This document shows, piece after piece, positions 56,525 through 62,671 of a stretch of 64,000 bases of DNA. The stretch's first letter is position 1; every line of letters starts with the position of its first letter. Both the position numbers and the translations under genes were made by a program. Below the pieces are notes generated by a model. It worked only from the letters and a program-made list of their open reading frames with translations, was not told the DNA's origin and did not search any database. The DNA comes from Fibrobacterota bacterium (GTDB lineage: Bacteria; Fibrobacterota; Fibrobacteria; UBA11236): the NCBI GenBank assembly GCA_028287505.1, contig JAQBPN010000085.1, positions 1-64,000 on the forward strand, read 5' to 3'.

Positions 56525-57925
56525 ATGACCCCAGCCGAAGTCATGAAACTGGCCAAAGACAATGGCGTCCAATATGTGGATCTGTTGTTCGGAGATATGT
56601 TCGGTCAATTGCAGCATTTCACCTTTCCGGTGAGCCGCCTTGACGATGAGATGTTCAAGGTCGGTATGGCCTTCGACGGCTCCTCCATCCGCGGATGGAA
56701 AGGCATCGAGGCTTCGGATATGATCATGAAGCCGGACCCGGCGTCCGCCTATCTCGATCCTTTCGTCGCCGCCCCGACCTTGGGCATGTACTGCGATATC
56801 ATCGAACCCCGCACCGGATTGCCCTACAACCGCGACCCGCGTTCGATCGCCAAGAAAGCCCTGGAATACCTGAAGACCACCGGCATCGGTGATCTGGCCT
56901 TCATGGGCCCCGAACCCGAGTTCTTCGTGTTCGACGGCATCCGCTACACCAGCGATCCCCGCCAGGGAAGCTACATCATCGAAACGGGCGAAGGCCCCTG
57001 GACCTCGGGCGCTGAAGGCAGCCTGGGCCACAAGGTTCCGTTCAAGGGCGGTTACGCTCCCGCGGCTCCCCAGGATACCCTGATGGATCTGCGCAATGAA
57101 ATGGTCACCAATCTGATCAAGATGGGGCTCACCCCGGAAATCCACCATCACGAAGTGGCCACGGGCCAATGCGAGATCGGCGTGAAGTTCGGCACGGTGA
57201 TTTCCGCCGGCGACCAGGTCCACAAGCTGAAGTACGTCGTCAAGAACACCGCCGCCAAGTACGGCAAGACGGCCACCTTCATGCCCAAGCCCATGTGGGG
57301 CGACAACGGTTCCGGCATGCACGTGCATACCTCGCTCTGGAAGGAAGGCAAGAACCTTTTTGCCGGCGACGGTTACGCCAACATGAGCAAGATGGCCCTG
57401 CATGCCATCGGCGGCATCATCAAGCACGGGAAGTCCATCCAGGTCTTCTCGAACTCCAGCGTGAACAGCTACCGCCGCCTGGTTCCGGGCTATGAAGCTC
57501 CCGTAAACCTGGCCTACTCGGCCACCAACCGTTCCTGCTCCATCCGCATTCCGCACGTGAACGGCGACAAGGCCCGCCGGTTTGAGTTCCGTTGCCCGGA
57601 CAGCTCCGGTTCCGCGTACTTGACCTTTGCGGCCATGGTTATGGCCATGATCGACGGCATCAAGAAGCAGATTGATCCGGGCGCCCCCGCGAACAAGAAC
57701 ATCTATGAGTTGCCGCCCGAAGAACTGGCGAACATCCCCTCCACCTCCAAGACCCTGGATGAGGCCCATGAAGCATTCGCGGCCGACAAGGAATGGGCTC
57801 TCGCCGGCGACGTTTTCGACGCCGACATGCTCGAGGCTTACCTTGGGTACAAGAAGGCCGCGGAAATCGAACCCCTGAAGCTCCGCCCGAACCCCTACGA
57901 GTTCGAGCTGTACTATCACGGCTGA
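56525..57925 (+). CDS. glnA: Glutamine synthetase, type I
   Basis: A 466-residue dodecameric enzyme that makes glutamine from glutamate and ammonia. Landmarks are the N-terminal MAFDGSSIRGWKGI latch loop, MGPEPEFFVFD, HHHEVATGQCEIG, MPKPMWGDNGSGMHVH, and the RIPHVNGDKARRFEFRCPD region. Tyr394 lies in KNIYELPPEE, the adenylylation site (Tyr397 in E. coli). The presence of this Tyr fits the glnE gene directly downstream. The next gene is separated by a terminator. A frame open upstream to 56414 is not supported by a start signal. Confidence 0.97.
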   Translation: MTPAEVMKLAKDNGVQYVDLLFGDMFGQLQHFTFPVSRLDDEMFKVGMAFDGSSIRGWKGIEASDMIMKPDPASAYLDPFVAAPTLGMYCDIIEPRTGLPYNRDPRSIAKKALEYLKTTGIGDLAFMGPEPEFFVFDGIRYTSDPRQGSYIIETGEGPWTSGAEGSLGHKVPFKGGYAPAAPQDTLMDLRNEMVTNLIKMGLTPEIHHHEVATGQCEIGVKFGTVISAGDQVHKLKYVVKNTAAKYGKTATFMPKPMWGDNGSGMHVHTSLWKEGKNLFAGDGYANMSKMALHAIGGIIKHGKSIQVFSNSSVNSYRRLVPGYEAPVNLAYSATNRSCSIRIPHVNGDKARRFEFRCPDSSGSAYLTFAAMVMAMIDGIKKQIDPGAPANKNIYELPPEELANIPSTSKTLDEAHEAFAADKEWALAGDVFDADMLEAYLGYKKAAEIEPLKLRPNPYEFELYYHG

Positions 57926-57966: not shown

Positions 57967-57996
57967 AGGGCTCCCGGAGACGGGAGCCCTTTTTTT
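57967..57996 (+). terminator. Intrinsic terminator between glnA and glnE
   Basis: AGGGCTCCCG, loop GAGA, CGGGAGCCCT, then TTTTTT. It ends glnA, only 21 bases before the glnE start, so glnE depends on readthrough or an internal promoter. This would keep GlnE levels far below those of glutamine synthetase. Confidence 0.93.
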
Positions 57997-58016
57997 GTTG
58001 TTATTTTAAAGGATAC

Positions 58017-61000
58017 ATGGAGCACCTGACTCCCTCCGAGAAAAAAGCCCTTATCATCCAGAACGCCGCCGGATTCCCTCCCGGAGTGGTGGCGGATCAC
58101 GTCCGCCGCTTGGACTCGGACTATTTCAATGAGTTCTCTCCGGCGGAAATCGAAAGCCACCTGGCCCGCATCGCCGCCTTGACCAAGAACGAGCCGTTTT
58201 CCTTCGGATTCACCACCTTGGATCCCCAAAGTTGGGGGTTCACCGTGATCGGAGAGGATCTGCCGGGCTTTTTCGCCGCTCTTTCCGGATTGCTCGCCAG
58301 CTATGACTTCGACATCCGCCTGGGCAAGGTTTTCAGCTATGGCTCCGATTTGGGAGAGAAGGGCGGCGAAGCCGCGCCCGGCCGGGGCAAAATCATCGAC
58401 TACCTGGTGTTGGCGCACGCGCAACCCGGAATCCTCACGCCTGAGTTCCAAGCCGGGCTGCTGGCGGATTTGGGCCGCCTGATTGGGCTGCTTCGGGAGC
58501 GCAAGACCCAGGAATTGCGCGTCGATCTCTATCGCCGTATCGGCGCTTACCTGAGCCGGATAAGCGGCTCGGAGGTGGAAACCCGGCTTCCCTTGGAAAT
58601 CCAGGCCGAGACCGATGACAGCCATGCCATTCTCATCGTGCGCGGCGCCGATCGCAAGGCCCTGCTTTTCTCCTTGAGCAACGCGTTGGCCTTGCAGGGG
58701 GTTTCCATCCAAAAGCTGCTGACCCGCTCCGAAGGCCGCAGCTTCGAGGACCGGATCTACATCGCGGATTCCCAGGGCAGGCCCATCACCAACCCGCATG
58801 TCCTGGAGCACTTGAAGGTGGCCATCATCCTGATGGAGCGCTTCATGTCCACCCTGCCCCAGGCCTCGGACTATCCGGCCGCGGTGCAAACCTTCAACGA
58901 TTTCATCGACGCCTTGATGGACCGGACGGGGGGGACGCCCGATTTGCCGGTATTCGAGGACTTCACCTTCCTCTCTTCCCTGGCCAAGATCCTGGGCGCC
59001 GGAGCCTACCTGTGGGAGGAAATGACCAAGCTTCCCCTGGCCGAGGTCACTTCCTTTTTGCGCAGCCTGGACGACGAGAAACGTCCCGCCACGCGCCGGG
59101 AACTGGAAAACCGTCTCCGCGACGCGATGGACAGGGAGTCCGCCTATCCCGCGAAGGCCGCGGCTTTGAATCGCTTCAAGGATTTCCAGTTGTTCCGGCT
59201 GGAAGTGGTCCATCTGATCTATCACCAGAAGACCCTGCAGGAGTTTTCCGCCGAGATCAGCAATCTGGCCGAAGTGACCCTGAACGCGGCCATGGGGCTT
59301 GCCTATGGCAAGCTCATCCGCGACCACGGGGAGCCGCATGCGGCCGAGGGTCCCTGCGCTTATGGATTGTTCGCCCAAGGGAAACTGGGCGGGCGGGAAC
59401 TGGGTTATGCCTCCGATCTGGAAGTGCAACTCATCTACGCGGCCTCGGGGGAAACCCGCGGCGGCCCGGAACCCATCAGCCACGCGGAGTTCTTTTCCCG
59501 CCTGGTACAGGAAATGCGCAGCGCCATCGTTACCCGGAGCGAAGGCATCTTCGAACTGGACCTTCGTCTGCGGCCGCATGGGGACAGCGGACCATTGGCG
59601 TCCCAACTGGAAAGATGGATCGAGTATTACGATGAGGACGGCGGAGCGTTGGACTACGAACGCCAAGCCCTGCTCAAGCTGCGCCCCATCGCCGGCGGCC
59701 GGGAATTCACCGAAGCCGTGATGGCGGCCCGGGACTCTTTGGTATTCGGCACCCGGCCGGTGGCCATCGAGCATACCCTCACTCTCCGGGCCAAGCAGGT
59801 GGAACTGAAAGCCGCCCACGGCATCAACGCCAAATTCTCGCCGGGCGGCCTGGTGGAAGTGGAATACGCCGTGCAATTCCTGCAGCTCAGGCACGGCCGC
59901 CGCCATCCCGCCTTGCATGAACCGAACACGGAAGCCGCCCTGGAAGCCTTGTTGGAAGAGGACATCCTGGATCCGGCCGAGTTCGAGAAACTGTACCAGG
60001 GGTACGCCTTCCTGCGCCGCCTCATCAACGCCCTGCGCATGGTGCGCGGGCATTCGCGCGACCTGATCGCGCCCGCGCGGGGGACGGACGGGTTCCTGTA
60101 TCTGGCGAAACGCATGGGTTATCTGTCCACGACGCGTTACGAACCGGACGCCCAGTTGGATTGGGACTTGAAGCACGTGCTCCGTGACGTGCACGACATC
60201 TTCGCCCGGCGGTTCTTGGAATCCGGATATGCGCCCGCCGCCGGAGAACCCGCACCCGCCAATGGTACCACTGGAGGCAACGGCTCCCGTTCCGACGGAG
60301 AGGTCTCGATTACGGCCGCGTTTCTGGATCCCGACGCCTCTCCGGATCGTTTGCGGAAGGCTTTGGAAAGGCTGGGGGTTGAGAAAGCGTCTTCGGGTCC
60401 GGAGCTGGTGAAGAATATGCTCGCGCCCGTGCGGGAAAAAGGCATCCTTTGCGCCGCCCTGGTGGTGGCCGCGCCCAAATTGCGCGCGAGTCCGGACGCT
60501 GAGGCGGTCCTGAGGCATCTGGGGCAATACCTGGAAGCGGTCGCCGATCCGGATTATTTCGTCCGCCAATTGCTCAACCATCCTTATCTGAATGAAATCC
60601 TGATCAAAGCCTTCGGGCATAGCGAGTACCTGACCGACATCCTGCTCCAGCAGCCGGATTATCTGCTGGCCCTGGGGGATTCCCGGGCCCTGGAAAAGTC
60701 CAAGCTTCCGGCGGAATTCCGCGGGGAGATCGCCGAGGCGACGCAGGGCCGGGAGGATTTCGAAGAGGTCCTCGACATCCTCCGCGGCTACCGCAACCGG
60801 GAATATCTGCGCATCGGTCTGCGGGACATCTGGCTGGGCGAACATCTCCACAGGATTACGGCCGAGATCAGCCATCTCTCCAACGCCCTCATCGAGGCCG
60901 TGTTCGCGCATACCATGGCGCAAGCCGGAACTGCCGACGTGGGCGGGGGCGTCTCCGTCATCGCCCTGGGAAAGCTGGGCGGCAACGAACTCAACTACAG

Positions 61001-61856
61001 TTCGGACATCGATATCGTTTTCGTTTTCGATCCGGAGAAGGTGCCCAAGGACCGGCAGTCCGGATTGGATGAGTGGGCGCGCCTTTTCATCTCCGTCTTG
61101 AGCCGGCCCGGATCCCACGGGAAGATGTTCCGGGTGGACACCCAATTGCGCCCCTATGGCGGCCAGGGACCGTTGATCGCGTCCAAAGGCCACTACGACG
61201 AATATTTCCGGAGCGAGGCTTCCGGGTGGGAGATGCAGGCATGGCTCAAGGCCCGGCCGGTGGCGGGAAATCCGGAGCTGGGCCGGGAGGTGGCGCGTAA
61301 CGTGCAGGCGTTGGCGATCTCCCCGTCCAACCGGGAAAAGATCGAAAGCAGCATGAAAAAAGTGCGGCAGATGGGGCTGGACAAGCTCAAGCAGGAGAAC
61401 CGGCTTTCCACGGAAGTGAAGCTGGGGCCGGGCGGCATCCGCACCATCGAGTTCTACGTGCAGTATCTGCAAATCCAACACGGCCAAGCGCATCCGGAAT
61501 TGATTTCAGGCAATACCTTGGCGGTTTTGGGAAGGCTGTACCGGTATCGGCTGATCAGTCCCAACTACCATGAACTGTTGTCGAAGAGCTATGTCTTCCT
61601 GAGGCGCATCGAGCATGTCCTGCAATTGCAGGGACTGCAGCAGCGCCATCAGCTGCCCGCATCGCCGGAAGAGCTGGAAAAGCTGGCGAAGCGGATGGGA
61701 TACGAAGAGAGGCTCGGCGAGAGCGCTTCGGCCCAGTTCCGCGCGCGTTACCGCCGGCACATGCTTACCCTGCTGGAATTGTCCGGCACCCTATTCGGAT
61801 ATGAAACCAACAGGCCGGCGGGCGGAACGCCCAATGCGCCACAGGAGAATCCATGA
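58017..61856 (+). CDS. glnE: Glutamine synthetase adenylyltransferase with N-terminal ACT-like domains
   Basis: A 1279-residue protein. From about residue 330 it matches GlnE, which adds AMP to, and removes it from, glutamine synthetase. The first nucleotidyltransferase domain has GKLGGRELGYASDLEVQL (Asp467, Glu469). The second has GKLGGNELNYSSDIDIVF (Asp997, Asp999), with VDTQLRPYGGQGP downstream. E. coli GlnE is about 945 residues. The extra N-terminal 300 residues contain two ACT-like segments, near 70-105 (WGFTVIGEDLPGFFAALSG) and 205-260 (AILIVRGADRKALLFSLSNA), similar to GlnD-type sensors. A fused amino-acid sensor is inferred. AAAGGA precedes the ATG. It overlaps rsmG by four bases. 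Confidence 0.93.
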   Translation: MEHLTPSEKKALIIQNAAGFPPGVVADHVRRLDSDYFNEFSPAEIESHLARIAALTKNEPFSFGFTTLDPQSWGFTVIGEDLPGFFAALSGLLASYDFDIRLGKVFSYGSDLGEKGGEAAPGRGKIIDYLVLAHAQPGILTPEFQAGLLADLGRLIGLLRERKTQELRVDLYRRIGAYLSRISGSEVETRLPLEIQAETDDSHAILIVRGADRKALLFSLSNALALQGVSIQKLLTRSEGRSFEDRIYIADSQGRPITNPHVLEHLKVAIILMERFMSTLPQASDYPAAVQTFNDFIDALMDRTGGTPDLPVFEDFTFLSSLAKILGAGAYLWEEMTKLPLAEVTSFLRSLDDEKRPATRRELENRLRDAMDRESAYPAKAAALNRFKDFQLFRLEVVHLIYHQKTLQEFSAEISNLAEVTLNAAMGLAYGKLIRDHGEPHAAEGPCAYGLFAQGKLGGRELGYASDLEVQLIYAASGETRGGPEPISHAEFFSRLVQEMRSAIVTRSEGIFELDLRLRPHGDSGPLASQLERWIEYYDEDGGALDYERQALLKLRPIAGGREFTEAVMAARDSLVFGTRPVAIEHTLTLRAKQVELKAAHGINAKFSPGGLVEVEYAVQFLQLRHGRRHPALHEPNTEAALEALLEEDILDPAEFEKLYQGYAFLRRLINALRMVRGHSRDLIAPARGTDGFLYLAKRMGYLSTTRYEPDAQLDWDLKHVLRDVHDIFARRFLESGYAPAAGEPAPANGTTGGNGSRSDGEVSITAAFLDPDASPDRLRKALERLGVEKASSGPELVKNMLAPVREKGILCAALVVAAPKLRASPDAEAVLRHLGQYLEAVADPDYFVRQLLNHPYLNEILIKAFGHSEYLTDILLQQPDYLLALGDSRALEKSKLPAEFRGEIAEATQGREDFEEVLDILRGYRNREYLRIGLRDIWLGEHLHRITAEISHLSNALIEAVFAHTMAQAGTADVGGGVSVIALGKLGGNELNYSSDIDIVFVFDPEKVPKDRQSGLDEWARLFISVLSRPGSHGKMFRVDTQLRPYGGQGPLIASKGHYDEYFRSEASGWEMQAWLKARPVAGNPELGREVARNVQALAISPSNREKIESSMKKVRQMGLDKLKQENRLSTEVKLGPGGIRTIEFYVQYLQIQHGQAHPELISGNTLAVLGRLYRYRLISPNYHELLSKSYVFLRRIEHVLQLQGLQQRHQLPASPEELEKLAKRMGYEERLGESASAQFRARYRRHMLTLLELSGTLFGYETNRPAGGTPNAPQENP

Positions 61857-62671
61857 CACCTCGCAGACCGGGCGGCCCCAATCCGGGCGGATTCACCGGC
61901 AAGCCCATCCGCGGCAAACGCTTCCCTCCCCGGTCGCCTTCGATCGTGGACGTCAAGCCTTCGAAAATAGCCTTGGGCCAGTTGATGGCGCGGTACGGCG
62001 TCCATCTCCAGCCGCAAACCCTGGACCTGCTTTGGGCCTATCACGGCCTGCTCCGGGAGAACAACCATGATCAGGACCTGACGCGCCTGATAGGATTCGA
62101 CACCATCGCGCAAAGGCACTATGCGGATTGCATGATCCTGCATGGGCTGATGAAAGGCAAATGGCCCTCTCCCATGGTGGACGTGGGCACGGGGGCGGGA
62201 TTCCCCGGCATCATGATCAAACTCATGTCCCCTTCCACCCGAATCGTCCTGGCCGAGCCGCGGCCGCGGCGGGTGCAGTTCCTGGAGATGGTCATCAAGG
62301 AGCTTGGCCTCAAGGACATTTCCGTCTTCGGGCATAAGGTCACGTCCCGCAGCCTCACGCAGCCCTTCGCCGCCGCCATCACGCGCGCCTTCGAAACCGT
62401 GGAGCACACCCTGCCCCGCTTCGGAAGCTGCCTGCCGTTGGGCGGCAAGGCCATTTTCATGAAGGGTCCAAAGGCGGCCGAGGAGATGGCCGTTTTCCAG
62501 AGCGATGAATACCGCGTGGCGCGCAACCATGCCTATCGCATTCCCAACACCACCCAGGACCGGGTGCTCCTGATCCTGGAGCGCACCAAGGTTCCCGTCC
62601 TCGATCTTTCCCGTCCGGCCGATCCGGCCGAAGAAGCGGACATCCAACCGAGCGATCCCGAAGATGAGTAA
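61853..62671 (+). CDS. rsmG: 16S rRNA m7G527 methyltransferase
   Basis: A 272-residue protein. The Gly-rich SAM motif VDVGTGAGFPGIMIK and AEPRPRRVQFLEMVIKEL mark RsmG (GidB), which methylates G527 of 16S rRNA. The first 45 residues are a Pro/Gly/Arg-rich extension not seen in E. coli RsmG. The start overlaps the glnE stop (ATGA) and its end overlaps the pseudouridine synthase gene by eight bases. Confidence 0.92.
   Translation: MTPRRPGGPNPGGFTGKPIRGKRFPPRSPSIVDVKPSKIALGQLMARYGVHLQPQTLDLLWAYHGLLRENNHDQDLTRLIGFDTIAQRHYADCMILHGLMKGKWPSPMVDVGTGAGFPGIMIKLMSPSTRIVLAEPRPRRVQFLEMVIKELGLKDISVFGHKVTSRSLTQPFAAAITRAFETVEHTLPRFGSCLPLGGKAIFMKGPKAAEEMAVFQSDEYRVARNHAYRIPNTTQDRVLLILERTKVPVLDLSRPADPAEEADIQPSDPEDE

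Follow-up and report, generated by a model that had tools for sequence, protein, structure and literature searches.

A predicted GlnE with reversed catalytic halves and a GlnD-type ACT pair in a Fibrobacterota bacterium

The window, i.e. the whole stretch of 64,000 nucleotides analysed here, contains an uninterrupted frame whose product is predicted from its sequence to be a bifunctional glutamine synthetase (GS) adenylyltransferase/deadenylylase, GlnE. Its two catalytic halves are assigned, by a domain tree and by diagnostic residues, to the reverse of the AR-AT order of E. coli, and they are preceded by two ACT domains that most resemble, in sequence and including the preceding helix, the C-terminal ACT pair of GlnD. 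We consider it fairly probable that this is a bifunctional enzyme of reversed order in which a GlnD-type ACT pair, most likely binding glutamine, gates the AT-type half directly. The features on which this reading is based are listed in the table.

Features of the glnA-glnE region (window coordinates)
Feature	Position	Strand	Basis or remark
glnA, type I glutamine synthetase, presumed GlnE substrate	56525..57925	+	NCBIfam GlnA, 594 bits
Intrinsic terminator, 10-bp stem and U7	57967..57997 (hairpin 57967-57990)	+	MFE -27.3, z -2.9
glnE, permuted ACT-ACT-AT-AR GlnE	58017..61856	+	1279 aa; open frame, profile matches, domain tree
Pre-ACT helices, residues 1-60	58017..58196	+	Model; in part common to the GlnD segment preceding its ACT pair
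ACT domain 1, residues 61-160	58197..58496	+	AF2 model, VIA structural matches
ACT domain 2, residues 194-278	58596..58850	+	Pfam ACT, AF2 model, conservation
AT-type nucleotidyltransferase half and GlnD_UR_UTase, residues 330-745	59004..60251	+	Domain tree, VIA structural matches
Motif GKLGGRELGYASDLE	59379..59423	+	G463 at the G697 (AT) position; carboxylates D467, E469
AR-type half, about residues 790-1279	60384..61853	+	Domain tree
Motif GKLGGNELNYSSDID	60969..61013	+	N993 at the N169 (AR) position; carboxylates D997, D999

Domain content and order of the halves

E. coli GlnE has 946 residues, and the window protein is thus longer by 333, close to the roughly 330 that an earlier sequence-only reading of this DNA had estimated. 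Pfam finds two GlnE domains (PF03710, 282.8 bits) and two GlnD_UR_UTase domains (PF08335), and the genome encodes no second GlnE. The best NCBIfam GlnE score, 463.4 bits, falls below the equivalog cut-off of 487, a shortfall that probably reflects the canonical order of the halves on which these models are built. The protein does not qualify as a GlnD: Pfam detects no HD domain, and in a tree that includes GlnD rows both nucleotidyltransferase halves fall with GlnE, set apart by a long branch with full support. Nor does this tree support the idea that the AT-type half is a uridylyltransferase derived from GlnD.

In E. coli, the AR half comes first and contains GGELNFSSDID (N169/D173/D175), and the AT half comes second and contains GWELGYSSDLD (G697/D701/D703). 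The contrast of N169 with G697 is reported to distinguish AR from AT (PMC4454073). Applied to the window protein, with ELGYASDLE in its first half and ELNYSSDID in its second, this rule makes the first half AT-type and the second AR-type, in agreement with the domain tree. Across our survey the position is Asn in all 140 AR-side domains and Gly in 84/84 regex-matched ACT-linked halves; canonical AT halves vary there, some having Asn, so that the residue by itself is no proof of half type. In a tree of 87 domains, the first half groups with other ACT-linked halves on the AT side (support 100), and the second clusters with E. coli AR (support 95-96). A collinear reading, in which the first half would be AR, is 209 log units worse (AU test, p ~1e-50); since the groups for this test were named after the first tree had been seen, the p-value should be taken as very strong rather than exact. 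When the tree is rooted with GlnD rows, the first split again separates AR-side from AT-side domains, with support of 82 for the AT side and 100 for the ACT-linked group, while the AR-side branch has a support of only 29, which makes this rooting weak. Structure comparison fails to tell AT from AR, as the AT-type half matches 1v4a and 3k7d with VIA Z scores of 40.8 and 40.0, respectively. By these assignments, it is the first half that would adenylylate GS.

The sequence-only reading had recognized two ACT-like segments in the extra N-terminus and had proposed structure prediction as a check. AlphaFold2, run on a 68-row alignment, yields two ACT folds (mean pLDDT 92.6, pTM 0.91), and their top structural matches include ACT proteins, namely aspartate kinase (Z 11.7), mycobacterial large GDH (Z 10.7) and threonine deaminase (Z 9.7). 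Pfam ACT scores 28.0 bits at residues 205-267 when the N-terminus is scanned alone (cut-off 27) and 22.9 bits, below the cut-off, on the whole protein; ACT_6 matches residues 76-100 weakly. A PDB sequence search with the N-terminus alone as the query returned chance matches only. The GlnD model TIGR01693 aligns residues 26-270 with GlnD 621-845 (E 4e-8), which is the entire GlnD ACT tandem, and profile matches to GlnD start within the pre-ACT segment. D212 in ACT domain 2 is invariant across 68 sequences, and the beta1-alpha1 loop of ACT domain 1 is variable (consensus DYPGEF, window EDLPGFF). Chance similarity is ruled out by the confident model, the structural matches and the conservation across 68 sequences. 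A model of residues 1-745 (pLDDT 92.3, pTM 0.88) places the ACT pair and the AT-type half in one confident unit.

The glnE gene directly follows glnA, in whose product the Tyr of NKNIYELPPEE aligns with the adenylylation Tyr of E. coli GlnA. The adjacency of glnE to the gene for its target, pointed out in the sequence-only reading, therefore stands, but does not amount to a simple operon, since an intrinsic terminator lies between the two genes; expression of glnE may rely on read-through or on a promoter of its own. Hairpins are also present at the glnA-glnE gap of seven relatives. On the other side, an ORF at 61853-62671 that on reading resembles an rsmG methyltransferase gene overlaps the glnE stop codon by 4 bases, which suggests translational coupling.

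Distribution of the ACT-ACT-AT module and of GlnD and PII

The architecture is not confined to this genome. The ACT extension is found on GlnE in 16/16 Fibrobacterota genomes having a true GlnE, and in several other phyla. Among the best 80 relatives from a pattern scan, which were chosen for their likeness to the window rather than as a census and some of which are cut by contig ends, frames and profiles give about 27 ACT-ACT-AT-AR proteins, 35 AR-ACT-ACT-AT proteins, 12 module-only genes and 6 canonical proteins without ACT. The first layout occurs in the window, other Fibrobacterota, Spirochaetes, Lentisphaerae and some deltaproteobacteria, and the second in Chloroflexi, Planctomycetes, KSB1, Acidobacteria and others. 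Eleven of the module-only genes are Nitrospira-type, with a divergent AR gene adjoining, i.e. a GlnE split into two divergent genes; the twelfth, from Tautonia, has no partner in its flank. In the eleven split loci, the AR-type frames are ~540-740 aa and the ACT-ACT-AT proteins ~760-840 aa long. In each of the three layouts, it is the AT-type half to which the ACT pair is linked. In samples of two other phyla, GlnE is mostly canonical. Thus, a survey of GlnE architectures, which the sequence-only reading had recommended, places ACT-GlnE in three layouts across several phyla; that reading had seen the ACT extension but had missed both the exchange of the AT and AR halves and this multi-phylum spread. 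Within the open-access literature searched, we found no paper that pairs GlnE with an ACT domain or describes such a layout.

The genome of the window encodes GlnD at full length (627.8 bits), together with two PII proteins whose T-loop carries Tyr51, one of them encoded next to an ammonium transporter gene. The sequence-only reading, which had asked whether glnD and glnB are present and had held that a conventional GlnD-PII cascade acting on this GlnE would speak against it, is therefore countered in part: the complete cascade is encoded and may act on this GlnE. Among 54 ACT-GlnE genomes searched, GlnD was found in 21 and not found in 33, which are mostly incomplete drafts but include three cases from the phylum of the window that are 93-98% complete and the isolate Anaerolinea thermolimosa, which has a protein of the AR-ACT-ACT-AT layout and likewise yielded no canonical PII. 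Seven of these 33 have no PII match and another six have only weak, atypical PII-like matches, in a search that left out the Tautonia genome. Three genomes that yielded neither GlnD nor canonical PII encode, next to glnE, a GS in which the target Tyr is present. It should be noted that GlnD can also go unmatched in genomes with canonical GlnE: it was found in 43/44 such genomes in a sample of a deltaproteobacterial phylum, and had no match in 11/26 in a Planctomycetes sample.

The state of PII Tyr51 is a mixed marker of GlnD loss. In three Chloroflexi without a GlnD match, Gly occupies the aligned position of the PII T-loop, so that the uridylylation site is gone, and the Tyr is kept in Spirochaetes and other Fibrobacterota. 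In three of the latter with ACT-GlnE, in which GlnD was not found, the contig that carries glnE also has PII genes a few kb away.

Direct sensing and its alternatives

In the GS adenylylation cascade, glutamine is sensed by GlnD and the signal is relayed via PII to GlnE. We propose that in the window protein the ACT pair, fused N-terminally to the transferase half, would bind glutamine, or else a nitrogen signal closely related to it, and that binding would directly shift AMP addition versus removal at the Tyr of the GlnA encoded by the neighbouring gene, presumably in favour of adenylylation. Such sensing is plausible in that a genuine ACT pair of the GlnD type is attached to the transferase half, and it is supported most strongly by relatives that have the module but yielded no GlnD and in some cases no PII either. 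Given the GlnD and two PII proteins of the window's organism, direct sensing would supplement the cascade there; in relatives lacking GlnD it would take the cascade's place. The earlier suggestion that the ACT domains let GlnE read amino acids itself thus fits the presence of the pair on the transferase half, and fits less well the GlnD and PII encoded alongside. A wider proposal is that these proteins form a separate, widespread GlnE lineage with a GlnD-type glutamine sensor in the AT half, a one-protein switch working without GlnD or PII, whose module has changed its place relative to the AR half, coming to precede it, to follow it or to stand as a separate gene; we regard this as evenly balanced between true and false.

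The choice of glutamine as the likeliest ligand is by analogy with GlnD. ACT pairs bind assorted amino acids, and the best structural matches of this one bind differing ligands, namely isoleucine (threonine deaminase) and arginine (CASTOR1); the variable loop of ACT domain 1 points the same way. The pair may then sense another effector (glutamate, another amino acid or a compound that is not an amino acid), or both ACT domains may jointly sense two ligands, but we consider this unlikely, since the enzyme targeted by GlnE makes glutamine and, in sequence, the pair is closest to that of GlnD, which is regarded as a glutamine sensor (PMC3173338). Less likely still is a role of the pair as a docking or dimerisation element, e.g. 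a PII-binding or oligomer interface, with regulation still passing through GlnD and PII. The cascade encoded in the window's genome would suit such a role, but the module is retained in genomes that yielded neither GlnD nor canonical PII.

The catalytic site of the ACT-linked half raises a different doubt. D-x-E replaces D-x-D in all 84 regex-matched ACT-linked halves, whereas canonical AT halves keep the Asp in 30/30, and this change of the second metal-binding residue could reduce transferase activity. That the half has a target other than GS, or is a dead regulatory domain, nevertheless appears improbable to us. The general nucleotidyltransferase motif tolerates Glu at the second carboxylate; D467, E469 and D515 are all invariant in 68 sequences, unlike in a dead domain; and against a new target, the GS Tyr is retained in a genome with a single GlnE. 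Direct gating of a presumably active AT-type half by the ACT pair remains the preferred reading.

Comparison with known GlnE and GlnD systems

An ACT-bearing GlnE in genomes without a detected GlnD, and sometimes without PII, suggests a circuit shorter than the textbook cascade and one that is directly testable. The swapped and split forms suggest that the halves need neither the order nor the tether seen in E. coli; they help to tell signalling within the molecule apart from mere tethering, and supply natural half-proteins to assay.

Canonical GlnE (GS-ATase of E. coli, NF008292; 1V4A, 3K7D) likewise consists of two homologous halves, each a nucleotidyltransferase with GlnD_UR_UTase, one AR-type and one AT-type, and shares the catalytic carboxylates and the GS target Tyr with the window system. 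The window protein differs from it in the reversed halves, the 333 additional residues with the ACT pair, D-x-E instead of D-x-D in the AT-type half, and a score below the NCBIfam equivalog cut-offs. GlnD (TIGR01693), the PII uridylyltransferase/uridylyl-removing enzyme, has the ACT pair and its preceding helix in common with the window protein, and its nucleotidyltransferase domain is a distant relation; the window protein, however, lacks the HD domain, carries the pair at the N-terminus rather than the C-terminus, and has nucleotidyltransferase halves of the GlnE side. The two other layouts found here are closer. The AR-ACT-ACT-AT proteins of Chloroflexi, Planctomycetes, KSB1 and others contain the same ACT-ACT-AT module with D-x-E, but keep the canonical AR-first order with the ACT pair in the centre, whereas the split GlnE of Nitrospira has the same module and AR-type half as the window protein, encoded by two separate, divergently transcribed genes.
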